This document shows, in pieces, positions 28,408 through 49,936 of a stretch of 64,000 bases of DNA. Each line of letters begins with the position of its first letter. Position 1 is the first letter of the stretch. Below the pieces are notes generated by a model, which did no database searches, was not told where the DNA came from, and saw only the letters and a program-made list of their open reading frames with translations. The DNA is taken from positions 1-64,000 of the forward strand of contig DASUWA010000016.1 of the NCBI GenBank assembly GCA_036378675.1, read 5' to 3'. The position numbers and the translations under genes are program-made. This stretch comes from Acidimicrobiales bacterium (lineage in GTDB: Bacteria > Actinomycetota > Acidimicrobiia > Acidimicrobiales > Palsa-688).

Positions 28408-30363
<1,956 letters not shown>

Positions 30364-31740: not shown

Positions 31741-32451
31741 GTGGACCAAAGCAGACGCGATTTCCTGAAGAAGAGCGCCATCGTCGGTGGGGCGGTATGG
31801 GTGGCACCCTCGATCGTCACAGTCGGCTCCGCCGCCGGCGCCTCGCCGGTCTGCAACTGTCCGAGCTGTCATGCCAATGCCACGGCGGTTGGGCTACTTC
31901 CTGACTCCGCCATCCCCCTCGGCCAGACGACGAGTACTAGCGGCTCAGCGTGCGCCAACAACTGCCTTGTCCCTGCGAGCCCTCTAATCGCGGTGGCGTG
32001 CAGTAAAGCGGACAGCGGTTCGTGCAGCTCAAGCGCATTTGTGGCCGGTGTCGGACCGTTGCCGCTGGGAACTCTAGGAACCCTCTCGGCTGACGTGATC
32101 TCTACCTGCGTGTGCTGCGGGCAGGGCGGGACCACCTTCGTGAATGTCTCGTTCACCCCGGTTACAGGTGGTACTCCCCTGACCTTGACTCCGAACTGCA
32201 ATGGCGCGGTCGGTGTTGTGCCTGGCCTGCTCACGATCCACACCAACGAACAGACGTGCACTAACGGCGTTCTCACGGTCACCGGCCTGAGAGTGAATCT
32301 CGGTGGGTCCGACATTGTTGTTTTGGCGCAATCCACCGCTGGCGCGACAGGCTGCGCCTGCCACGCATGCACGACCGGATCGGTGTCTACCCCGCCGTGC
32401 ACGACCCCGGGGCCCGCACAAACGAGCTGCACTCCCGCAACCTCCTGCTGA
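31741..32451 (+). CDS. Tat-exported cysteine-rich protein
   Basis: The product is 236 residues from GTG 31741, with an AAGAAGGGG ribosome site. The leader is SRRDFLKKSAIVGG (RR at residues 5-6), then AVWVAPSIV and a cut region near residue 33. The exported part has 18 cysteines, often in close pairs (CNCPSC, CVCCG, CACHAC), and is otherwise rich in T, G, S and P. No known fold is recognised; the cysteines could bind metal or form disulfides, as Tat exports folded proteins. It is followed by a 13-bp hairpin and then by an HprK-like kinase gene, the same order as at 46857-48343. I suspect it is a substrate of that kinase or of the PqqD proteins (inference). Confidence 0.75.
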   Translation: MDQSRRDFLKKSAIVGGAVWVAPSIVTVGSAAGASPVCNCPSCHANATAVGLLPDSAIPLGQTTSTSGSACANNCLVPASPLIAVACSKADSGSCSSSAFVAGVGPLPLGTLGTLSADVISTCVCCGQGGTTFVNVSFTPVTGGTPLTLTPNCNGAVGVVPGLLTIHTNEQTCTNGVLTVTGLRVNLGGSDIVVLAQSTAGATGCACHACTTGSVSTPPCTTPGPAQTSCTPATSC

Positions 32452-32487
32452 GAAGCACGGCCAGGTAGAGGCTCAGGGCGAGGTGTG

Positions 32488-32518
32488 AGACGTCTCTGCC
32501 CAAGTGGCAGGGACGTCT
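32488..32518 (+). terminator. Strong hairpin between Tat-protein and kinase genes
   Basis: AGACGTC-T-CTGCC at 32488-32500 pairs with GGCAG-G-GACGTCT at 32506-32518 through a 5-base CAAGT loop, 13 pairs in RNA with one U-G. No T-run follows. It probably acts as a partial terminator or RNA stabiliser so that the first gene is expressed more than the second. Confidence 0.55.
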
Positions 32519-32580
32519 TGCTCGCGACTGGCTTGCCGCGTAGCGTTTTCGTTGCAACGGGGAAGGCCACCGGAGGGGCA

Positions 32581-33483
32581 TTGGAAAGTACGGCAAGTGC
32601 GGAGGCGGCACGGCAGCTGAACGCGCGGGTCTATGTCACGAGCCGCTTCGTCGCACTCGGATACGACTTCGAGATCGAGACCGGTGACCCCGTCCTCGGC
32701 CGGTATCTGGACTCGGTGCTGTCGCCGTTTGCCCGGACGGGTCGTGGAGCGCACCGATATGCGGTCGTCCGTAGGTCAGACCCCGATGAGCACTTCGCGC
32801 TGTACTTCGAAGGTGAGCGGCAACGGCGGTCAAACGACGGGGGTACCGTCCTCGCCTATCTGTTCTGGCACATCAACTCGCAGGTCATCAGTCAATCGAA
32901 CCACTCCCTGCTGCTCCATGCCGCCGGCGCCGAGCTCGGAGGCCGGGCCGTCGTGCTGCCGGGACCCTCCGGGGCGGGTAAGAGCACGCTTGTCGCGGGA
33001 CTGATCCGGGCAGGGTTCCGTTATTTGACCGACGAGGCCGTTGCTCTCGATTCTGCTACTGGCGACGTCGTTCCCTTTCCCAAACCATTGAAACTCGACA
33101 CTGGATCGCAGTCTTTGTTGCCTGAGTTGCGTCCGGAGCTCGACCCGAAGATCGATCGATACGAGACGAACGATTGGATCGTGGACGTCCGGTCGATCGG
33201 ACCGGACCGACTTGCCCCGCCGGCCCCTCCAGCATTCGTTGTCGGCCCGGCCTACCGTCGAGGGAGCGAAACACGGCTCATTCCTCTTCGGCCGGCAGAA
33301 ACCGCGATGCTAATGATCCAGAACGCATTGAACCTGCCCACGCACGGAAGGGCCGGTTTGGACCTCGTCGCGGCGACCGCCCGACGGGTGCCCGGCTTCC
33401 GACTTGAGGTCGGCGACCTCGACGCAGCCTGCTCCCTGATCACCGAACTCATGATCGGCGTTTCCCCCGATTTGATGCCCTGA
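32581..33483 (+). CDS. HprK-like serine kinase
   Basis: The product is 300 residues from TTG 32581, which has GGAGG four bases before it. It resembles the C-terminal catalytic domain of HPr kinase: SLLLHAAGAELGG with the conserved His, Walker A GPSGAGKST at residues 128-136, and the acidic pair in YLTDEAVALD near residues 150-157, followed by PKPLKLD. HPr itself and the N-terminal domain of true HprK are absent, so this is the HprK-related type found with PqqD and nucleotidyltransferase genes. The ATP-dependent step would phosphorylate a peptide or protein, or use ATP for another modification. It follows the cysteine-rich Tat gene. Confidence 0.8.
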   Translation: MESTASAEAARQLNARVYVTSRFVALGYDFEIETGDPVLGRYLDSVLSPFARTGRGAHRYAVVRRSDPDEHFALYFEGERQRRSNDGGTVLAYLFWHINSQVISQSNHSLLLHAAGAELGGRAVVLPGPSGAGKSTLVAGLIRAGFRYLTDEAVALDSATGDVVPFPKPLKLDTGSQSLLPELRPELDPKIDRYETNDWIVDVRSIGPDRLAPPAPPAFVVGPAYRRGSETRLIPLRPAETAMLMIQNALNLPTHGRAGLDLVAATARRVPGFRLEVGDLDAACSLITELMIGVSPDLMP

Positions 33484-34387: not shown

Positions 34388-35098
34388 GTGGAGGCCGTCG
34401 ATGTCACGGTCTTGCTGGGTGCGGGGATGCCAGCAGAGCTCGAGGTACTCGAATATGCGCTCGGGCGTAGGCGCAGCGTGAGCACCTTGGGTTGGGACCC
34501 GACCGTCAGCGGGACGGTCGACAAGGTTGCAACTCGAAAGCCGGACGTCGCCCTCGTATGTGCCGATTTTCCCGACGGGGACGGCATAACTGCGTGTTCG
34601 GAGATCAAACGTCATTTCCCTCCGACCCGGGTAATAGTCATCGGGCCCTCACGGGATGACAGCGTTCTGATTTCAGCAGTGAAGGCCGGCGCCGACGGAT
34701 TCGTCACCACCAACGACTCGATCGATGATCTGGTCGACGCAGTGCATGAGGTCAGCCGGGGCGCCTCGCACATACCGCCGATGATGCTCGGCGGGCTTTT
34801 GCGAGGTCTGATCGAGTTCAGGCGGGAGGACGACGGGGCCTTTGAGCGGTTCGCCAGCCTCGGCAAACGCGAGCGGGAAGTCCTGGTAGGTATCTGTGCC
34901 GGGCTCGGCGACCAGGCGATAGCTGCGAGGCTCCACCTCTCACCCCACACCACCCGCACTCACGCGCAGAACATCTTGGGCAAGCTAGGCGTACATTCCC
35001 GCGTGGAAGCGACGCGGATGGTGTTCGAGCACGACTTGTTCGCTCGCTTCGGCATTGATGTCGATGGACTGGCGGAAGAAGGAGGGGGTGCGAAGTGA
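34388..35098 (+). CDS. LuxR-type response regulator, atypical receiver
   Basis: The 236-residue product has a receiver-like domain (about 5-125) and a LuxR helix-turn-helix (about 155-220; LGKREREVLVGICAGLGD then AARLHLSPHTTRTHAQNI). In the receiver the place of the phospho-acceptor Asp is taken by Cys in ALVCADFPDGDG and the usual late Lys is a Thr (GFVTTNDS), so phosphorylation is doubtful. The start is GTG 34388. The TGA overlaps the GTG of the PqqD-family gene, so regulator and PqqD protein are coupled. It probably controls this locus. Confidence 0.8.
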   Translation: MEAVDVTVLLGAGMPAELEVLEYALGRRRSVSTLGWDPTVSGTVDKVATRKPDVALVCADFPDGDGITACSEIKRHFPPTRVIVIGPSRDDSVLISAVKAGADGFVTTNDSIDDLVDAVHEVSRGASHIPPMMLGGLLRGLIEFRREDDGAFERFASLGKREREVLVGICAGLGDQAIAARLHLSPHTTRTHAQNILGKLGVHSRVEATRMVFEHDLFARFGIDVDGLAEEGGGAK

Positions 35099-35436
35099 GC
35101 AACCAGAGTTTCAAGCCCGGGCTACGTCCTTTCCAACGACCCGGAATCCGCATCGAACATCGCGGCGCGCAGGCCCTGATCTCCGATGCCGAACGGACCA
35201 AAGTCCTCTCCCTCAACGAGTCGGCGGCAGCAGTGCTGGAGTTGTGCGACGGACGGACGACGATCGACGAGATGGTGATGGCTATTTGCCAGGTGGCTTC
35301 CGTTCGACCCGATCAAGCCCGGGAGGACGTCGAACTGACGATAGCGAAATTGGAGGGGGCAGGTTTCGTGGCTTTTGACCCAGGAGTGGGCCGCAAGCGC
35401 AGCCCGAGACCAAGCGTTAGCGGGAGCGATCTGTGA
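35095..35436 (+). CDS. PqqD-family peptide-binding protein (copy 1)
   Basis: The 113-residue protein has the PqqD winged-helix fold at about residues 16-95: RIEHRGAQALISDAERTK, VLSLNESAAAVLELCDG, a TIDEMV helix and a final LEGAGFVAF strand. PqqD proteins bind leader peptides (the RRE of RiPP systems) and present them to modifying enzymes. No radical-SAM partner is present here; the likely partners are the HprK-like kinases. Its gene overlaps the regulator before it and the Wzz-like gene after it, both by GTGA, so it is translationally coupled to both. Confidence 0.8.
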   Translation: MSNQSFKPGLRPFQRPGIRIEHRGAQALISDAERTKVLSLNESAAAVLELCDGRTTIDEMVMAICQVASVRPDQAREDVELTIAKLEGAGFVAFDPGVGRKRSPRPSVSGSDL

Positions 35437-37386: not shown

Positions 37387-37668
37387 GTGTCACATGAACA
37401 CCGCTGGGTCCGATCGCCCGGGACGCTCTGGCGCTCCTCCAGCGGCACCCTGGTCGTACTGCCTCAGGAAGGAGACGATCCAACCCCATTGGTGGTGTCT
37501 GGATCGGCGGCGCTGGTTTGGGGCCTCCTTGCCACACCCGTCACGCTCGTGGAACTGGCAGACCGACTATCCCAACTGTGCGATGCCAGTGCCGACGTGA
37601 TCGCCAGAGACCTGGCTCCAGTGCTCGACCAATTAAACGCGGCTGCGGCTGTGCAACGGGTGCCATGA
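37387..37668 (+). CDS. PqqD-family peptide-binding protein (copy 2)
   Basis: The 93-residue product reads HRWVRSPGTLWRSSSGTLVVL, then VSGSAALVWGLLATPVTL and a final pair of helices with DVIARDLAPVLDQLNAAAAV, matching a PqqD winged helix. I start it at GTG 37387; TTG 37357 would add ten residues. The open frame continues upstream through the repeat tail of the preceding gene but that part is a frame shadow. The stop overlaps the ATG of the nucleotidyltransferase (ATGA), so the two are coupled. It is the most divergent of the five PqqD domains. Confidence 0.7.
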   Translation: MSHEHRWVRSPGTLWRSSSGTLVVLPQEGDDPTPLVVSGSAALVWGLLATPVTLVELADRLSQLCDASADVIARDLAPVLDQLNAAAAVQRVP

Positions 37669-38819
37669 ATCTCGGCGTCCCTTCCTTTCCCACACTCGGG
37701 ACTCACGTTTCATCGTTATTGCGCTCTGTCGCCGCGCACGGCCTCGTCGGCAAGCACGGCGAGAGCCAGGACGCGTTTGCCCTTGTCTCGGAGCCGTTGA
37801 GCCAGCCCGACTGGCGCAGCCTGCTTTCGACGGCGCGCCACGAACGCCTACTCGGGTTGCTTTCCCGCGCGATGGCCGATGGCGCCCTACCTTGCAGTCT
37901 CGAGCAAGCCGAGGAGCTCCATCAGGCGCACTTGGCCGAACTGTGCCGGGACCTAACGTGCGAAAGGCAACTCATCGAGGTCGTACGGGCACTACGGCAG
38001 GCCGATCTGGATCACCGTGTTCTCAAGGGCTCAGCCGTGGCGCATCTTGACTATCCAGAGCCTGCGCTCCGCTCCTTCGCCGATGTCGACCTCCTCGTAC
38101 GCGCCGACCAGTGGGACGATGCGGTCGCGGTCCTGGCCGAAGCCGGGTGGCAGCGTCAGTTCGGTGAACCCCGGCCGGGCTTCGATCGCCGCTTCGTGAA
38201 GGGGGTAGTGCTTACTCGGACCACAGGAGAGACCCCGATGGAATTGGACCTTCATCGGACCCTAGCGCTCGGTCCGTTCGGGCTCACCGTCCGACTCGAG
38301 GACCTTTGGGACGGATATGACGTGCTTCGGATCGGTGGAGAAGAGCTGCACTGTCTCCAAGCTCAGGAGCGTTTCCTACACGCGTGCTTCCACGCGGTGC
38401 TCGGAGATTTTCCTTCCCGGCTTGTCCCGCTACGTGACATCGCCGAGATGATTCTGAATAAGGATCTTGATCTAGACCTCGTCATCGATCTTTCGCGATC
38501 GTGGCACGCCGAAGCCGTGTTGCTTCACGCCGTACAAGTCTCTTGCGCAACCCTCCAATTGGATTCATCCGAGGAACCTTGGAACCGCATCAACTCGTTA
38601 AGGCCGCCACGTCGCGAGCTGACAGCGTTGAGGCCGTATCTGACGCCCAAGCGCTCCTACGTAGGGCTGTGCTTGGCCGCAACCCGAGCGATCCGTAAGC
38701 CGTCGGACAAGGCTCGCTATCTCGCCGCAATGGCGTTCCCTAGGCGGCAGTTTGTTGGGGCCCGCTACCGCAGCCGCGTCGACCGGTGGCGAGCAGCGGC
38801 ACAGGTGCTTCGCTCGTGA
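37665..38819 (+). CDS. Nucleotidyltransferase-fold protein (PF14907 type)
   Basis: The 384-residue protein has the uncharacterised nucleotidyltransferase signature HRVLKGSAVAHLDYPEPALRSFADVDLLVRA near residues 120-150, in which the D-V-D gives the metal-binding acidic pair, followed by a helical domain (ELDLHRTLAL, FLHACFHAVLGDFPSRLVPLRDIAEM). Family members occur with PqqD, HprK-like and asparagine-synthase genes, including lasso-peptide clusters with a phosphorylating kinase. The substrate is not established. Start is ATG 37665, fixed by the ATGA overlap with the PqqD gene; the long in-frame extension to 37518 is spurious. Confidence 0.8.
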   Translation: MNLGVPSFPTLGTHVSSLLRSVAAHGLVGKHGESQDAFALVSEPLSQPDWRSLLSTARHERLLGLLSRAMADGALPCSLEQAEELHQAHLAELCRDLTCERQLIEVVRALRQADLDHRVLKGSAVAHLDYPEPALRSFADVDLLVRADQWDDAVAVLAEAGWQRQFGEPRPGFDRRFVKGVVLTRTTGETPMELDLHRTLALGPFGLTVRLEDLWDGYDVLRIGGEELHCLQAQERFLHACFHAVLGDFPSRLVPLRDIAEMILNKDLDLDLVIDLSRSWHAEAVLLHAVQVSCATLQLDSSEEPWNRINSLRPPRRELTALRPYLTPKRSYVGLCLAATRAIRKPSDKARYLAAMAFPRRQFVGARYRSRVDRWRAAAQVLRS

Positions 38820-38856
38820 CGAACCCACGAAGCCGAGCCGGCCGGTACCGCGCAGG

Positions 38857-39198
38857 GTGACGGACGACGCACAAGTCCCGCAGCACGTCGGACCCGACTT
38901 CGTCGCGACCCGGCGGCAGGACATGATTACGGTCGAGATCGAAGCGGAGGCGATCGTTTACGACGAGCAGCAAGAGGTCGCGCACCTGCTCAGTCCTACA
39001 GCAGCAATCGTATGGGAGCTGCTCGACGGCCGAAGTCGGCTCGACGAGGTGGCCGTCGACCTCGCACAGGCTTTTGACGTAGCCGCCGAGCTGGTTCTAC
39101 AGGACGTCGTGACGCTCGTCCAGGAATTCTCTCGGCAAGGTTTGCTCGCGAGGAGTTCGACAACTTCGGCGGAGACCAAGTGCACATCGCCGCCCTGA
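38857..39198 (+). CDS. PqqD-family peptide-binding protein (copy 3)
   Basis: The 113-residue product has DMITVEIEAEAIVYDEQQ, VAHLLSPTAAIVWELLDG, LDEVAVDLAQAFDV and QEFSRQGLLAR, a standard PqqD winged helix at about residues 20-100. It begins at GTG 38857, 37 bases after the nucleotidyltransferase stop; an open frame back to 38752 overlaps that gene and is not conserved. The end overlaps the next gene by 19 bases. It is closest in sequence to the PqqD domain of the fusion protein at 40225-42027 (shared AAIVWE-x-x-DG). Confidence 0.78.
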   Translation: MTDDAQVPQHVGPDFVATRRQDMITVEIEAEAIVYDEQQEVAHLLSPTAAIVWELLDGRSRLDEVAVDLAQAFDVAAELVLQDVVTLVQEFSRQGLLARSSTTSAETKCTSPP

Positions 39199-40224: not shown

Positions 40225-42027
40225 TTATTCCGACTCGTTCCTTATTGACGGCAACTGTTTCTCGATGCTTTGCATGAGCTCGCGCTCCGACGCTGAATTC
40301 AGGGGAATGACCCTGACCTGCTGCACGATTCGCTCGAGGTGCTCGATCACCTTGCCCAGCTGGTCGGGTGAACCTTCTACGGCGGGCAGAAGGGCCGCAA
40401 TGGCGCCGGCCCGGCTGGACCGCTCGTTCTCGGCGGACTGATCGCATTCGAAGCCCCACGCCCCCAGCCGGTAGCGGCCCGGCTCCATCGGAAGGAGTTC
40501 GCTCCGCGACGACGGAACTTCGCCGAGCTCTTCAAGCACATCGTGTGCCACCTCGATCGCCGGTTCGGGTATCACCAACTCCCCCGTCGCGGGATCGACC
40601 AGGGCCCCGGGCGCGTCGCTGAGGCGCACGCCTAGCCGAGCCAGCCGGGGCTGCAAGTACTCCATCCCGCGGATTGCAGCCGGTGGCAACAGAAACGCAC
40701 GATCGCCGGCCAACGCAGCCACGGCGACAGTGCGGACCAGACCGTCGGTGTCGGGTCTGTCGAGCAGGCCAGACAGCCTTGCCTGAAGCGCTCGCACGAC
40801 CCGGCGAGAGGACCGGCTTCGTAGCACGGTGGCATCCGCGGCGAGGAGCAGGCTCAGGGCTTTGGCGTCTCCTGAGTCGGCGCCGCCGAGAACGACCGAG
40901 AAGTTGGCCGCCGCCGGCGGGCCATCCTGAACCAGGTAGGCGCCGAACACTCTGGCGAGAAGTTCCTCGGTCCGGATCGAATCAGCCCTGACACCGACCC
41001 GGTAGTCGCCGATGTCGAAGCCCAATGTGGACGCCCACTGTCGGGGAGCCTTCCCTCCTGTGTGGGGGGACGGCCCGCACATTCCCCCGGCCGCGGGCAA
41101 TACCGGTCGCTGAGCATGAACGTGCTCCACGCCGCCCTGGTCTGCGTCCGGCTGCGACGTGACCTCGGTCGGCTCGGGCTGGAGCCCGGCGGCCTCGCGG
41201 GCCAGATTCGGCACTTGGTCCGCGCCCAAAGCGGCGGGATGCTCTATTACCCCGTCGACGCCCAGAAGGTAAGCGACAGGAGTCCCGAGAGAACCGAACG
41301 GATTGGCCGAGCCGGGATGATCCCCGTCTTCGGCGTGCTTCCGGTAGAAAGCTGCGTCGCTCAGCCCGGCTGGATCAAGCACCCGCCGGTTGTCCTCGTC
41401 CGACCCGACTGTCAGGAGCACCAGATCGATGCCGCGCTCGACCAACCCGGGTCTGCACTGCTCCAGATCCCCGACGATCTTCGAGCAGTAACCGCACGAC
41501 GGGCTCCAGTTGATCAAGAGGGTGCCCTTGCTTTCGGGCCGCGGAACAGTCACCAAATCCCCGCTGGACGTCGTCACCTGAAGCACTCCGATCGACTCTC
41601 CAACCTCCCGGACGCCTGGCGCCGGCGGGGGCCCCGGAACGAAGAGGGCGACGCCGGCGAGTAGTCCGAGCTCGCCTAGCTGGCGGGTCATCCCCAGGAT
41701 GTCAGCAATGACGACCTCCACCGGAGCTTCGAAGACTTCGGCCAGCTCCTGAGCCAGTTCACCCAAGGTGACCGTGCCGTCGAAGCACTCCCATACGATC
41801 GCCGCGATCGAGTTGAGCACATGGATTCGGCCCGTCCGATCGTCGACGACCAGCACCTCATCGTCGAAGCGGTATGAAACGGAAGACTCTCGGGGATTGG
41901 GAGCGAAACTGGCGTCGATGTCCTCCGGCTTTTTCGCGATGCTTACCGACACCGGTGGCATCGGGCTATGCGACCCGTTAGTACCCGCCATCGACAATGA
42001 CTCCGATTCCACCCCGTGCTCAGCCAC
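40225..42027 (-). CDS. PqqD-thioredoxin-HprK-like fusion protein with a dead kinase site
   Basis: The product is 600 residues from GTG 42027 (AAGGGG upstream). Residues about 48-126 are a PqqD winged helix (VLVVDDRTGRIHVLNSIAAIVWECFDG). Residues about 145-275 are a thioredoxin fold with active site CGYC (Cys178, Cys181) in LLINWSPSCGYCSK and a cis-Pro in GTPVAYLL. Residues about 330-510 align with the HprK-like kinases, but the P-loop is replaced (LLPPAAIRGMEYL, about 446-458), the His before it is lost and DE becomes DA (RLSDAPGALVD). It is last in the bacillosamine operon and overlaps the sugar-transferase gene by 8 bases. It has no signal peptide. It may join leader binding, redox chemistry and kinase scaffolding. 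Confidence 0.8.
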   Translation of the reverse strand: MAEHGVESESLSMAGTNGSHSPMPPVSVSIAKKPEDIDASFAPNPRESSVSYRFDDEVLVVDDRTGRIHVLNSIAAIVWECFDGTVTLGELAQELAEVFEAPVEVVIADILGMTRQLGELGLLAGVALFVPGPPPAPGVREVGESIGVLQVTTSSGDLVTVPRPESKGTLLINWSPSCGYCSKIVGDLEQCRPGLVERGIDLVLLTVGSDEDNRRVLDPAGLSDAAFYRKHAEDGDHPGSANPFGSLGTPVAYLLGVDGVIEHPAALGADQVPNLAREAAGLQPEPTEVTSQPDADQGGVEHVHAQRPVLPAAGGMCGPSPHTGGKAPRQWASTLGFDIGDYRVGVRADSIRTEELLARVFGAYLVQDGPPAAANFSVVLGGADSGDAKALSLLLAADATVLRSRSSRRVVRALQARLSGLLDRPDTDGLVRTVAVAALAGDRAFLLPPAAIRGMEYLQPRLARLGVRLSDAPGALVDPATGELVIPEPAIEVAHDVLEELGEVPSSRSELLPMEPGRYRLGAWGFECDQSAENERSSRAGAIAALLPAVEGSPDQLGKVIEHLERIVQQVRVIPLNSASERELMQSIEKQLPSIRNESE

Positions 42028-42670
42028 CCTGCGCCCCTTCTTCCACGAGCTGCCCGACTCCTGACGTGAGCGTAACATCCGCTTTGTCCGGTTCGCCACG
42101 GGAATCGCCCTTGAAAACGGGCATGGTCGCGTGGCCAGAATGAGAGATACCACGTGCCCGTGTGACGGTCAGCGGCGTTTCCACCAGCAAGCGCAGATCT
42201 AAACGCCACGAGCGGTGTTCGACGTACCAACTGTCGAGCCGGAACTTCTCATCCCATGTGAGAGCGTTGCGGCCACGAACCTGGACCAGACCGGTCAGTC
42301 CCGGCTTGACCTCCAGCCTGCGCGCCTGCTCGGGTGAGTAGCGCGAGTTGTAATCCGTAGGAAGCGGCCGGGGTCCCACCAGCCGCATGTCGCCCCGGAC
42401 GACGTTCCACAAGCTCGGAAGCTCGTCGAGGCTGGCCCGGCGCAGGGCGCGCCCGAGGCCCGTCATCCTCAGCTCATCACCCTCGCCGAATGCTCCACCC
42501 GGACGCATCGTCCTGAACTTGTACAGGACAAAGGGAAGGCCTCCCTTCCCAGCGCGCTGCTGCCGGAAGAGGACCGGGGATCCGTCGAGAACCCGGATCA
42601 GCACAGCCACCGCCGCCATCACTGGGGTCAGCGCCGCGCATAGGACGCCGGCAACGATCCGGTCGATCAT
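42020..42670 (-). CDS. pglC: Undecaprenyl-phosphate sugar-1-phosphate transferase, PglC-like
   Basis: The 216-residue protein is a short monotopic phosphoglycosyltransferase of the PglC type. It has an N-terminal re-entrant hydrophobic helix (IVAGVLCAALTPVMAAVAVLI), SPVLFRQQRAG, YKFRTMRPG, the catalytic DELPSLWNVVRGDMRLVGPRPL, and PGLTGLVQVRGRN. It lacks the four extra membrane helices of WbaP/WcaJ. It would move a diamino-sugar phosphate from UDP onto undecaprenyl phosphate at the inner face of the membrane, starting glycan assembly. Its ATG overlaps the aminotransferase stop by ATGA. Confidence 0.88.
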   Translation of the reverse strand: MIDRIVAGVLCAALTPVMAAVAVLIRVLDGSPVLFRQQRAGKGGLPFVLYKFRTMRPGGAFGEGDELRMTGLGRALRRASLDELPSLWNVVRGDMRLVGPRPLPTDYNSRYSPEQARRLEVKPGLTGLVQVRGRNALTWDEKFRLDSWYVEHRSWRLDLRLLVETPLTVTRARGISHSGHATMPVFKGDSRGEPDKADVTLTSGVGQLVEEGAQGG

Positions 42671-46856: not shown

Positions 46857-47387
46857 GTGGAAGAGACCGAGGCGGTCATCTCCCGGCGTAGCGCGCTCAA
46901 GAAAATCGGTGTGGGGGCAGCGGTCGTCTGGACGGCGCCGATGGTGATGAGCTTCGAAACTCCCGCATTCGCCGCGTCTGAGGTATGCACGAACTGCGAC
47001 ACGACGTGTCCTCGAAGCGGGAACCAATGCGCACCGGGCCACTTCTGCCTGGTGCATGTGAATCGGGCCGGGTCGCGCTGCGTCTGCGTCTTCGCCAACT
47101 ACTGTGCTGAGACGGCAAAGAATGGAAGCGGCAGCGACATCGTCTGTAGCAGCGATGCAAATTGCCCGCCGGGTTACGTTTGTGCGACGACCTGCTGTGG
47201 TAACGGGGGCCAAAGCATCAATCTGTGCGTGCGACCCTCGGGTCCCGCGAGCGCCCACAGGACCGGGTGGGATGTTGCCGGCCTCTACCACTGCATCCAA
47301 GACTCCGATTGCACCGGGGTTCACAATCCGTTCGGCACCGCGTTCACCCATTGCGCCACGGTTAACGGCCTGAGCGTCTGCCAGTAA
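46857..47387 (+). CDS. Tat-exported cysteine-rich protein
   Basis: The product is 176 residues from GTG 46857. The leader is SRRSALKKIGVGAAVV (RR near residues 10-11) followed by WTAPMVMSFETPAFAAS, with a probable cut after AFA. The mature part has 18 cysteines, the same count as the 31741 protein, in a disulfide-like spacing (CTNCDTTC, CVCVFANYC, CSSDANCPPGYVCATTCC). No metal or enzyme signature is recognised. It is followed after 56 bases by an HprK-like kinase gene, repeating the order at 31741-33483. A surface-exposed, modified small protein is the best inference. Confidence 0.75.
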   Translation: MEETEAVISRRSALKKIGVGAAVVWTAPMVMSFETPAFAASEVCTNCDTTCPRSGNQCAPGHFCLVHVNRAGSRCVCVFANYCAETAKNGSGSDIVCSSDANCPPGYVCATTCCGNGGQSINLCVRPSGPASAHRTGWDVAGLYHCIQDSDCTGVHNPFGTAFTHCATVNGLSVCQ

Positions 47388-47443: not shown

Positions 47444-48343
47444 ATGTCCCGACGGGCCGGCGCGTCAGCAGACTGGCTGGGGGACGGTTACTTTCGCTGC
47501 CTGGGATACGTGTTCAACTTGCGATGGGATAACCCCGAAGCCGGCCGGACTATTCGCCGCATCCTCGGTCAGTTCGAAATCCCCGCCAATCGAGTCGAGA
47601 GGCGCACTCCCCCAACACCAAACGTGCCGCCGGTGTATTCGCTCAGCCAGACCACCGATGTGTGCGAGGTGCGGTATGGCAACGACCTCCTCTTCGGCCC
47701 GGAAACCTTCGACGAGGCGCTTTCCCATCTCTTGTGGCACATCAACGCCGAGGTGGGCAGGTCCACCGGTAGCTACCTCTTGATTCATGCGGGTGCGATT
47801 GCTGCGCCTTCCGGCGACGGGATGATCCTTCCGGGTGATTCGGGTTCAGGGAAGACCACGCTCGTTGCCGGCCTGGCTGAGAAAGGTTTCCAGTACCTCT
47901 CTGATGAGGCGGCCGCAATCGACCCGGTGAGCCGGCAGCTGTACCCGTACGCGAAGCCGCTGACCTTGAAACTCGGATCCCTTTCGCTCTTCCCAGGCCT
48001 GGAAGCTCACAAGACGGACAGCGTTGTGCGCCTTCAGGACCAGTGGTTCGTGCAGCCGGAAGCCTTTGGCGGCAAGACCGTCTCCGGCCCGTGCAGCGTG
48101 CGCTGGGTCGTCAGTGTTCGCTATCAGCCGGACGCGCCGACCCGGCTCGAGCCGATTTCGTCTGGAGAGGCAGTCATGGAACTCGGGCGCCGGATCATGA
48201 ACCTGCCCCAGTACGGCGGTCGGGCGTTCCAGTTGCTGGCGGACGTCGCACGCGGCGCCGCTAGCTATCGCCTAGTAAGTGGCGACCTGCGTGAGGCTGT
48301 GGCGACGCTTGACGGTTTGGCGCGCAGCCAGGAGCGCAGCTGA
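47444..48343 (+). CDS. HprK-like serine kinase
   Basis: The 299-residue protein is a paralogue of the one at 32581. It has YLLIHAGAIAAPSGDGMILPGDSGSGKTTLVAGL with the P-loop GDSGSGKTT at residues 131-139, and the acidic pair in YLSDEAAAIDP near 153-160, then PYAKPLTLKLGS. The preceding LLWHINAEVGRSTGS block is also shared with the 32581 protein (FWHINSQV). All visible ATP-site residues are intact. Its partner is probably the Tat protein encoded just before it or the PqqD-type protein just after it. Confidence 0.8.
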   Translation: MSRRAGASADWLGDGYFRCLGYVFNLRWDNPEAGRTIRRILGQFEIPANRVERRTPPTPNVPPVYSLSQTTDVCEVRYGNDLLFGPETFDEALSHLLWHINAEVGRSTGSYLLIHAGAIAAPSGDGMILPGDSGSGKTTLVAGLAEKGFQYLSDEAAAIDPVSRQLYPYAKPLTLKLGSLSLFPGLEAHKTDSVVRLQDQWFVQPEAFGGKTVSGPCSVRWVVSVRYQPDAPTRLEPISSGEAVMELGRRIMNLPQYGGRAFQLLADVARGAASYRLVSGDLREAVATLDGLARSQERS

Positions 48344-48455: not shown

Positions 48456-49076
48456 TTGCCATACAAGCCGCGGCGGCGCGATGACGTGCTTTTCCGTCAG
48501 GTTGATCGAGGCGTGGTCGCGCTCGACCCGAAGACGCAGCAGGCTCATGCCCTCGAGCCGCCCGCCGCGCAGGTCTGGGCGGCATGCGACGGGGCCGATG
48601 ATGTGGATGCACTGGCGGTCCGATTAGAGGTCCCGGTTGACACCGTGAGGCACATCCTCGGCTGCCTGGCCGACGCGGGATTGATGAACGGTGAGAACGA
48701 CCGGAAGTTCTCGCGGCGTGCCGCCCTCGCCGGGTCCGCCGGCGTTGGCGTCGGGTTGGTGGCCACGATCGTGTTGCCGACCCCGGCGATGGCCGCCAGC
48801 AGGCCGAATCAGACGGGCATCTCACCCGAATCGGCTCAGGGCGAGCAAACGGCGTCAGCGGCGGAGACCCCGACCGGGCCCACCACGGCCGGTCCGACCA
48901 CCACCGAGCCGAACACCACCACTTCGACCCCGAGAAATGGGGCTCATCAAACGGAGCCGGCGCAAGAACTCGCTTTCACCGGTGCAGACTTGACAGACGA
49001 CGTCGCGATCGCTGCAGGCGCGATCGGGGCAGGTGCCGCGATTGTCGCCGCCTCCCGGAAAGCATCAGGCCGGTAA
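48456..49076 (+). CDS. PqqD domain fused to an internal Tat signal and a sortase-like tail
   Basis: The product is 206 residues from TTG 48456 (AGGA five bases upstream). Residues 1-78 are a PqqD winged helix (VLFRQVDRGVVALDPKTQQ, ALEPPAAQVWAACDG, CLADAGLMNG). Residues 85-113 read as a Tat-type signal: KFSRRAALAGSAGVG, a hydrophobic stretch and LPTPAMAAS as cut site. A Thr/Pro/Gly-rich linker follows (about 120-168), then ELAFTG, a hydrophobic segment (about 182-199) and a basic RKASGR end, which resembles an L-A-x-T-G sortase signal. A cytoplasmic peptide-binding domain followed by export and anchoring signals is very unusual. It may be cleaved into two products. Confidence 0.75.
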   Translation: MPYKPRRRDDVLFRQVDRGVVALDPKTQQAHALEPPAAQVWAACDGADDVDALAVRLEVPVDTVRHILGCLADAGLMNGENDRKFSRRAALAGSAGVGVGLVATIVLPTPAMAASRPNQTGISPESAQGEQTASAAETPTGPTTAGPTTTEPNTTTSTPRNGAHQTEPAQELAFTGADLTDDVAIAAGAIGAGAAIVAASRKASGR

Positions 49077-49132: not shown

Positions 49133-49936
49133 GTGTGGCGTTGCTTCGGTCGCGCGGTCGGCCTGCGGGCGCCGGCATCTATGCAAATGGAGTTCGACCG
49201 GCTGATTCCATCCTCGCTGTGGCACCGGGCGATGTCGTCGACCCCGGAGCGGCTTTGGGAAGCAACCCGAACTGACCCGAGCCTCTACATAACCAGCGAG
49301 GGGTCCCCCATCGGTACCTGGGCCGAGCCCGCCGAGGCCGCGCGCGCGGTCCGCAGCGACATGGAGATATGGCTGGGAGCCAACGCTCGGGGAAGGGTCC
49401 TCGTGCATGCTTCCGTCGTGGCTGTCGGCAACGCCGCTCTGGTCCTTCCCGGGCCTTCGATGGCGGGAAAGACGACCCTTGCTGTCGCGCTCGTGCGGCA
49501 GGGCGCGGACTATCTGAGCGACGAGTTCGCCGTTCTGGACACCCAAGGTTTCGTGCATCCGTATCCGCGTCCGGTGTCCATCCGTGACGAGCAAGGAGTT
49601 CATCGACCGGCGGACGTGGACCTCCGCGACCGCGCATATGTCGGCGATGACGGCCTACGAGTAGGGATGATCGCAGAACTGGCCTTCGACCGAACTTGCG
49701 ATGTTCTCAGCATGCGTGAGATCTCGCCTCCGGAGGCCGTGCTTGCATTGCTGCGCAACGCGGTTGGCGCGCGGACCCAGGGCAAGCAAGTACTCGAGTC
49801 AACAGTGGCCGCCGCCCAGGGTGCCCGCTCTTTCTCGGGCATCCGAGGGGAGGCCGCCGTCGTAGCCACGAGCCTTCTCGAGTTGATGAGGCGTGAGAAC
49901 CGATCCCGATTGGGGTCCGTTAGTGCCGGCTCTTAG
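49133..49936 (+). CDS. HprK-like serine kinase
   Basis: The product is 267 residues from GTG 49133. It has RVLVHASVVAVGNAALVLPGPSMAGKTTLAVAL with the P-loop GPSMAGKTT at residues 107-115, and the acidic pair in YLSDEFAVLD near 129-136, then PRPVSI. It is shorter at the N-terminus than the other two copies. It closes the Tat-HprK-PqqD-HprK run that starts at 46857. It probably acts with the PqqD-Tat fusion protein encoded 56 bases upstream. Its end overlaps a convergent gene by 17 bases. Confidence 0.78.
   Translation: MWRCFGRAVGLRAPASMQMEFDRLIPSSLWHRAMSSTPERLWEATRTDPSLYITSEGSPIGTWAEPAEAARAVRSDMEIWLGANARGRVLVHASVVAVGNAALVLPGPSMAGKTTLAVALVRQGADYLSDEFAVLDTQGFVHPYPRPVSIRDEQGVHRPADVDLRDRAYVGDDGLRVGMIAELAFDRTCDVLSMREISPPEAVLALLRNAVGARTQGKQVLESTVAAAQGARSFSGIRGEAAVVATSLLELMRRENRSRLGSVSAGS

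Follow-up and report, generated by a model that had tools for sequence, protein, structure and literature searches.

The open reading frame at 48456-49076 of the window (the whole 64,000-nucleotide stretch analysed) encodes a protein in which a PqqD domain is followed by an internal Tat signal and a candidate sorting signal. An AGGA sequence lies five bases 5' of its TTG start codon. The sequence-only reading had listed, in this order, a PqqD domain, an internal Tat signal, an AMA-AS cut site, a Thr/Pro linker, LAFTG, a hydrophobic stretch and a basic tail, and all are located where it placed them (Table 1). The Tat signal comprises residues 81-113, with SRR at 86-88 and a predicted cut after residue 113 (FSRRAAL...TPAMA^AS). 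It displays the S/T-R-R motif, weakly hydrophobic h-region and AxA site of Tat substrates, and TatC is encoded in the same genome (214 bits). Curated Tat models pass their cut-off in relatives, but not in the window protein. Behind LAFTG (residues 172-176) come a hydrophobic stretch of Ala, Gly, Ile and Val and the terminal SRKASGR; the LAXTG motif, hydrophobic stretch and basic tail of class E sortase substrates are all present.

Table 1. Features of the fused protein and of its neighbours in the window
Feature	Position	Strand	Evidence or remarks
Whole ORF, 206 aa	48456-49076	+	TTG start, AGGA upstream; GC3 0.77
PqqD / RRE-fold domain, about residues 5-78	48468-48689	+	Pfam PF05402; AlphaFold; Foldseek
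Internal Tat signal NDRKFSRRAALAGSAGVGVGLVATIVLPTPAMA, cut predicted before AS	48696-48794	+	Sequence; alignment with other PqqD-Tat proteins; scan of window genes
VATI, the [LVI]x[ST][IF] motif of the signal; extra beta strand predicted	48759-48770	+	12 of 12 PqqD-Tat proteins; AlphaFold models
Thr/Pro-rich linker	48804-48965	+	Sequence
LAFTG, hydrophobic stretch, basic tail (candidate class E sorting signal)	48969-49073	+	Sequence; similar tails elsewhere in genome and family; class E sortases
HprK-related kinase (HprK_rel_A-like), upstream neighbour	47444-48343	+	TIGR04352 E 3.9e-34, 118 of 200 bits
Second HprK-related kinase, downstream neighbour	49133-49936	+	TIGR04352 E 2.1e-16, 59.9 of 200 bits
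Cys-rich protein, ordinary N-terminal Tat signal (V-M-S-F motif)	46857-47387	+	TIGR01409 16.2 of 16.7 bits
Second Cys-rich protein with N-terminal Tat signal	31741-32451	+	TIGR01409 21.8 of 16.7 bits
Third HprK-related kinase, adjoining the 31741 gene	32485-33483	+	TIGR04352 E 1.4e-35, 122.8 of 200 bits
Unfused PqqD protein	35095-35436	+	PF05402 53.4 of 23.4 bits
Further PqqD domain	from 37072		
Nucleotidyltransferase NTP_transf_5	37518-38819	+	PF14907 E 3.7e-37
Unfused PqqD protein	38752-39198	+	PF05402 46.9 of 23.4 bits
PqqD fused to thioredoxin-like domain	40225-42153	-	PF05402 47.2 bits; MauD-like E 7.9e-5

RiPP recognition elements (RREs) are known to guide the enzymes that tailor small ribosomal peptides. 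PF05402 matches the window protein with an E-value of 1e-4 and 22.8 bits, against a curated cut-off of 23.4; one relative (L090) exceeds the cut-off at 26.2 bits. In the AlphaFold model, built on a 38-row alignment, the PqqD part consists of three strands followed by three helices (bbb-aaa) with pLDDT of about 94-97; the alignments behind the models of PqqD-Tat proteins include few PqqD-Tat rows. The top Foldseek matches of this part are solved RREs, namely, TbiB1 with leader (5v1u, 5v1v), lasso B1 with leader (6jx3) and PbtF (8t19), all at probability 1.00 and TM (target) of 0.57-0.77, with E-values of only 1.6e-3 to 2.2e-2. A homologue with 31% identity (G255) gave the same outcome, a canonical RRE with lasso-peptide RREs as best matches. 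As modelled, then, the PqqD part of the window protein has a canonical RRE fold. In three fusions (from G001, G193 and G306) the aligned PqqD part is about 20 residues shorter than unfused PqqD.

Recurrence of the PqqD-Tat order

The PqqD-Tat order was found in 12 proteins from 9 genomes by searches of the family, class and phylum and by one search of named genomes. A first scan of the genome contigs with the window protein as sole query gave no matches. The search was centred on the window's class, into which every G-numbered member falls, and no PqqD-Tat protein was found elsewhere in the phylum sample searched. The cargo behind the Tat signal differs among members: Thr/Pro with LAFTG in the window protein, Gly-rich in two tandem proteins of G001, Gly_rich_2 in G193 and G306, and Thr-rich, interrupted by the contig end, in G255. 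An Ig-like region with a Thr/Pro stalk is found in G338 (two proteins), G718, G270 (two proteins) and a freshwater MAG (L137). Big_9 is over its cut-off in both Ig-like-cargo members tested (L088 and L090), and Tat models reach their curated cut-off directly behind PqqD in L088 and L093 (TIGR01409) and in L096 (PF10518). Matches to the Tat signal only or to the C-terminal tail only (L010, L011, L015 and others) turned out to be ordinary Sec + LAxTG proteins, and a PqqD-like match in G078 (L099) runs into a stop codon before any Tat signal.

A chance juxtaposition can be dismissed, since the order is shared by 12 proteins with different cargos, and so can a sequencing frameshift joining two genes, since the fusion is in frame in all 9 genomes. 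LAxTG is not the key feature either: it is not kept in the relatives, and the LAFTG tail is found in only the window member of the 12. Thus, to judge from the sequences, the conserved unit is PqqD-Tat and the anchor is not part of it; recurrence of the same order with differing cargos in 12 proteins of 9 genomes points to selection on the pair as a unit. The earlier observation is confirmed with one amendment: the recurring part is the PqqD-Tat core, and LAFTG with its hydrophobic tail was found in the window protein alone. No paper describing the PqqD-Tat-LAxTG order was found, in agreement with the earlier statement that no well-described protein has it. Likewise, a literature search with sparse coverage of subscription journals found no paper combining RRE and Tat in this sense.

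Analysis of the Tat signals revealed a motif, [LVI]-x-[ST]-[IF], in 12/12 PqqD-Tat proteins, 16-22 residues past the start of [SG]RR. Shuffled signal segments contain it in 7-30% of trials per signal, a rate that is not a formal probability because the members are related. AlphaFold predicts a five-residue strand at this site, VATIV in the window protein and VETIG in G255. The confidence of the strand block (81 and 71, respectively) is moderate, yet higher than that of adjoining blocks. A strand assignment in DSSP requires a partner strand. In RREs, the bound leader forms a fourth strand on beta3 (PMC7470986), and we hypothesize from the models that the PqqD domain might bind its own Tat signal in cis.

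Neighbours of fused and unfused PqqD genes

In the window, the fused gene sits between two HprK-like kinase genes, preceded by the gene for a Cys-rich Tat protein. A second pair of a Cys-rich Tat protein and an HprK-like kinase (31741-33483), additional PqqD domains and NTP_transf_5 are all located in the same polysaccharide-rich region. By eye, each of the three kinases has a histidine (LLIHA, VLVHA, LLLHA), a P-loop GK[ST]T and then SDE/TDE and a further aspartate. A lasso-peptide cluster was considered and rejected, as neither a transglutaminase-like B2 nor a lasso cyclase adjoins the fused gene; an Asn-synthetase-like gene at 28408 belongs to the polysaccharide region, at a distance of 20 kb.

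Other members have different neighbours. In G193 and G306 a PqqD-thioredoxin fusion is next to the fused gene; such PqqD-thioredoxin-like fusions were seen beside or near PqqD-Tat genes in three genomes (window 40225-42153, L095 6863-8575, L089 3881-5542). A 2OG-Fe(II) oxygenase gene is located directly 3' of the fused gene in G718, G338 and L137, and oxygenase genes beside or near PqqD-Tat genes were seen at L089 (G306), L090, L091 and L137, the last having its ATG 12 bases past the PqqD-Tat stop. Upstream of the second copy in G338 is a family 2 glycosyltransferase, and a sulfotransferase overlaps the end of this copy; G255 has sulfotransferase and GlcNAc-type glycosyltransferase genes within 6 kb. 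The common theme of fused-gene neighbours is protein- or sugar-modifying enzymes, drawn from more than one enzyme family. In the genomes with Ig-like cargo no HprK was seen beside the fused gene, which would mean that different lineages use different enzymes.

We also compared the surroundings of unfused PqqD genes (40 regions, each no longer than 12 kb) with 40 control regions at arbitrary positions in contigs of PqqD-carrying genomes. Genes with Tat-like signals are present at 22/40 unfused PqqD loci versus 3/40 controls (Fisher p 3e-6), although all three control genes, and a few of the 22, look spurious. Since the controls were not matched for surface-protein loci, part of this enrichment may reflect secretion clusters generally. 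When the signal must also contain P-x-[IVLA]-x-[STG], a motif framed after some loci had been seen, Tat-like genes are left at 16 PqqD loci and at none of the controls. Many Tat signals at these loci share the layout SRRDLLKR..A..G..AW.AP.I.S. HprK-like kinases (tblastn) were found at PqqD loci only (25/40 versus 0/40, p 1e-10), as was NTP_transf_5 (16/40 versus 0/40). Several individual loci may be mentioned. Locus L187 (G740) has three consecutive Tat-signal genes with a nearly identical signal, SRRxFLKKAG..AW.VPT, near a PqqD gene. In L047 and L078 a single reading frame covers both PqqD and an HprK-like P-loop region, so that two components of the proposed system are directly fused. Locus L097 (7860-9912), from a genome of the window's family (G007), carries a lasso-type row of B2-like, PqqD and HprK-like proteins.

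These data partly support the earlier idea of a chaperone fused to its own exported cargo. PqqD is indeed joined to the cargo via the Tat signal, but 'own cargo' is too narrow, as relatives combine the PqqD-Tat unit with freely varying cargos, and unfused PqqD genes often lie near separate genes whose Tat signals have a related motif, and near genes for HprK-like kinases. From sequence comparison, the window protein is more aptly viewed as the cis version, made by fusion, of a broader system comprising PqqD, kinase and Tat substrate.

A possible mechanism and its alternatives

We tentatively propose, giving it a little less than an even chance, that the window protein is a surface protein and that, prior to Tat export, its N-terminal RRE (PqqD) works in the cytoplasm on the polypeptide to which it belongs. 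The RRE would capture the [LVI]x[ST][IF] stretch of the Tat signal that follows it, provide a docking site for the neighbouring HprK-like kinase, or both. The kinase, possibly together with the NTP_transf_5 enzyme, would then modify the Ser/Thr-rich cargo while export is held back, so that the cargo would be modified or checked before export through RRE-signal binding and/or kinase recruitment. Once freed, the signal would engage Tat and be cut by signal peptidase at AMA^AS. The RRE part would thereby remain on the cytoplasmic side, and the cargo would be anchored through LAFTG by a class E sortase. Loci with unfused PqqD, Tat-substrate and HprK genes would represent the same system in trans. 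There are precedents for individual steps. PadeK/PsmK-type kinases phosphorylate a lasso precursor and the nucleotidyltransferase PsmN adds hexose to phospho-Ser (PMC9266682), whereas Tat chaperones bind the h/c region of signals and lower membrane binding (PMC3316669).

Alternatively, the protein might be a membrane-tethered scaffold, in which an uncut Tat signal serves as signal anchor, PqqD at the inner membrane face guides other substrates in trans (e.g. the products of the 46857 and 31741 genes) and the C-terminal part is a mere stalk. The window cargo, which consists of a Thr/Pro linker and anchor with no folded domain, would fit this arrangement, as would the unfused Tat substrates with a related signal motif in the same window. 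However, genuine surface domains (Big_9, Gly_rich_2) follow the PqqD-Tat unit in relatives and most PqqD-Tat signals end in AxA-like sites, and we regard the scaffold as unlikely. That PqqD is a decaying fusion remnant with no present function, the Tat signal alone driving export, seems distinctly improbable: the same order is found in divergent members (about 20-45% identical to the window protein) with intact reading frames and a recognisable PqqD, and AlphaFold predicts a complete RRE fold for two members, despite the sub-threshold Pfam score and the shortened PqqD part of some members. Equally hard to favour, and perhaps harder, is the additional use of an in-frame ATG at codon 77 (MNGENDRKFSRR), nine codons before SRR, which would add to the full-length form a protein with an ordinary N-terminal Tat signal. 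An ATG also directly precedes [SG]RR in three other members, but most have no ATG near the RR, just scattered GTG or TTG codons, and PqqD is kept in all. Moreover, the internal ATG lacks a well-spaced ribosome-binding site, whereas the AGGA of the TTG start is at good spacing.

As to the C-terminal end, class E sortases use LAXTG in actinobacteria (PMC5148588). The sequence-only reading had called for a search for such enzymes and would have abandoned the anchor in a genome with no sortase; this objection fails, since class E sortases are present. Two are over the NCBI cut-off of 160 bits (L001, 166.2; L002, 162.8) and a third is below it (L003, 131.4). The hydrophobic end could instead be a membrane anchor only. 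We consider this rather unlikely, though it has points in its favour: the stretch is short and Ala/Gly-rich, no sortase gene was seen in the window and the PqqD-Tat relatives lack such a tail. Against it, LAFTG is correctly placed and the genome encodes, besides the two sortases, another LAFTG protein of similar layout; similar tails are numerous in the family. Two LPITG proteins with hydrophobic and basic ends are also encoded in this genome. Judging from these sequence features, a class E sortase may anchor the cargo of the window protein at LAFTG.

Members with Ig-like cargo end differently, with P-x-F-T-G or P-x-Y-T-G at the stop codon. C-terminal P-x-F-T-G just before the stop was counted 34, 31, 19, 20 and 9 times in G270, G338, G718, G140 and G094, respectively (loci L105-L134), against 0-1 per genome for the reversed pattern; it is absent from G000 and G255. 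Most of these proteins have a signal peptide where the N-terminus is readable, many have a Thr/Pro-rich stalk and none has a hydrophobic tail after the motif. P-x-F-T-G has the appearance of a tail signal that lacks a membrane segment and is limited to a single family, and the literature search found no paper on it. One contig (L135, CAMCTY010000002.1) is identical to G718 and titled Bifidobacterium breve; its close relatives are freshwater Actinomycetota bins, and the title is probably a mislabel.

Relation to known systems

The PqqD part resembles known RREs (PqqD, lasso B1 TbiB1, FusB1) in its bbb-aaa fold, best structural matches and link to modifying enzymes. However, the RREs described so far either stand alone or are joined to enzymes (PMC7470986, PMC12710340), whereas that of the window protein is fused to the putatively exported protein itself, ahead of its Tat signal. 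The HPr-rel-A system (HprK_rel_A, PqqD_rel_X and a nucleotidyltransferase; TIGR04352, TIGR04353) is similar in composition, as HprK_rel_A-like kinases, PqqD and NTP_transf_5 occur together in the window and in many relatives. The window kinases score below the TIGR04352 cut-off (Table 1) and are related to, but not filed as, members; TIGR04353 does not match the window protein and gives the other window PqqDs 15.8-20.1 of 35 bits, below its cut-off. A Tat-signal partner is absent from the descriptions of HPr-rel-A that were found. In lasso-peptide tailoring, PadeK/PsmK and PsmN likewise combine a kinase, a nucleotidyltransferase and a PqqD-type protein on a ribosomal precursor (PMC9266682), but no lasso-type transglutaminase or cyclase was recognised beside the fused gene, where a surface protein with a Tat signal is the candidate substrate. 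With the Tat proofreading chaperones NapD, TorD and DmsD the window protein shares the idea of a domain that binds a Tat signal before export, and their site can be the h/c region (PMC3316669, PMC3712460). These chaperones are separate proteins, and NapD binds the signal as a helix near the RR; by contrast, the window protein has an RRE fold in cis and the candidate segment is a predicted strand. Finally, LAFTG, the hydrophobic stretch, the basic tail and the presence of class E sortases are all as in class E LAXTG proteins (PMC5148588), whereas the export signal is internal, of Tat type and behind a PqqD domain.

Overall, the data suggest a previously undescribed partnership between PqqD domains and Tat signals. 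More broadly, RREs might constitute a new class of recognition factors for Tat signal peptides: in cis or in trans, they would bind a conserved stretch of dedicated Tat signals in beta-strand form and thereby link the export of surface proteins to their kinase-type modification; we advance this wider proposal with considerable reserve, as possible rather than probable. Tat chaperones have been described mostly for redox enzymes. An RRE-Tat unit that is conserved while its cargos are exchanged, and that has a trans counterpart in the linkage of unfused RRE genes to Tat-signal genes and HprK-like kinases, would join the RRE and Tat-chaperone fields. It would also supply a testable recognition motif in the signal peptide and a substrate for the little-studied HPr-related kinase / PqqD / nucleotidyltransferase gene sets.
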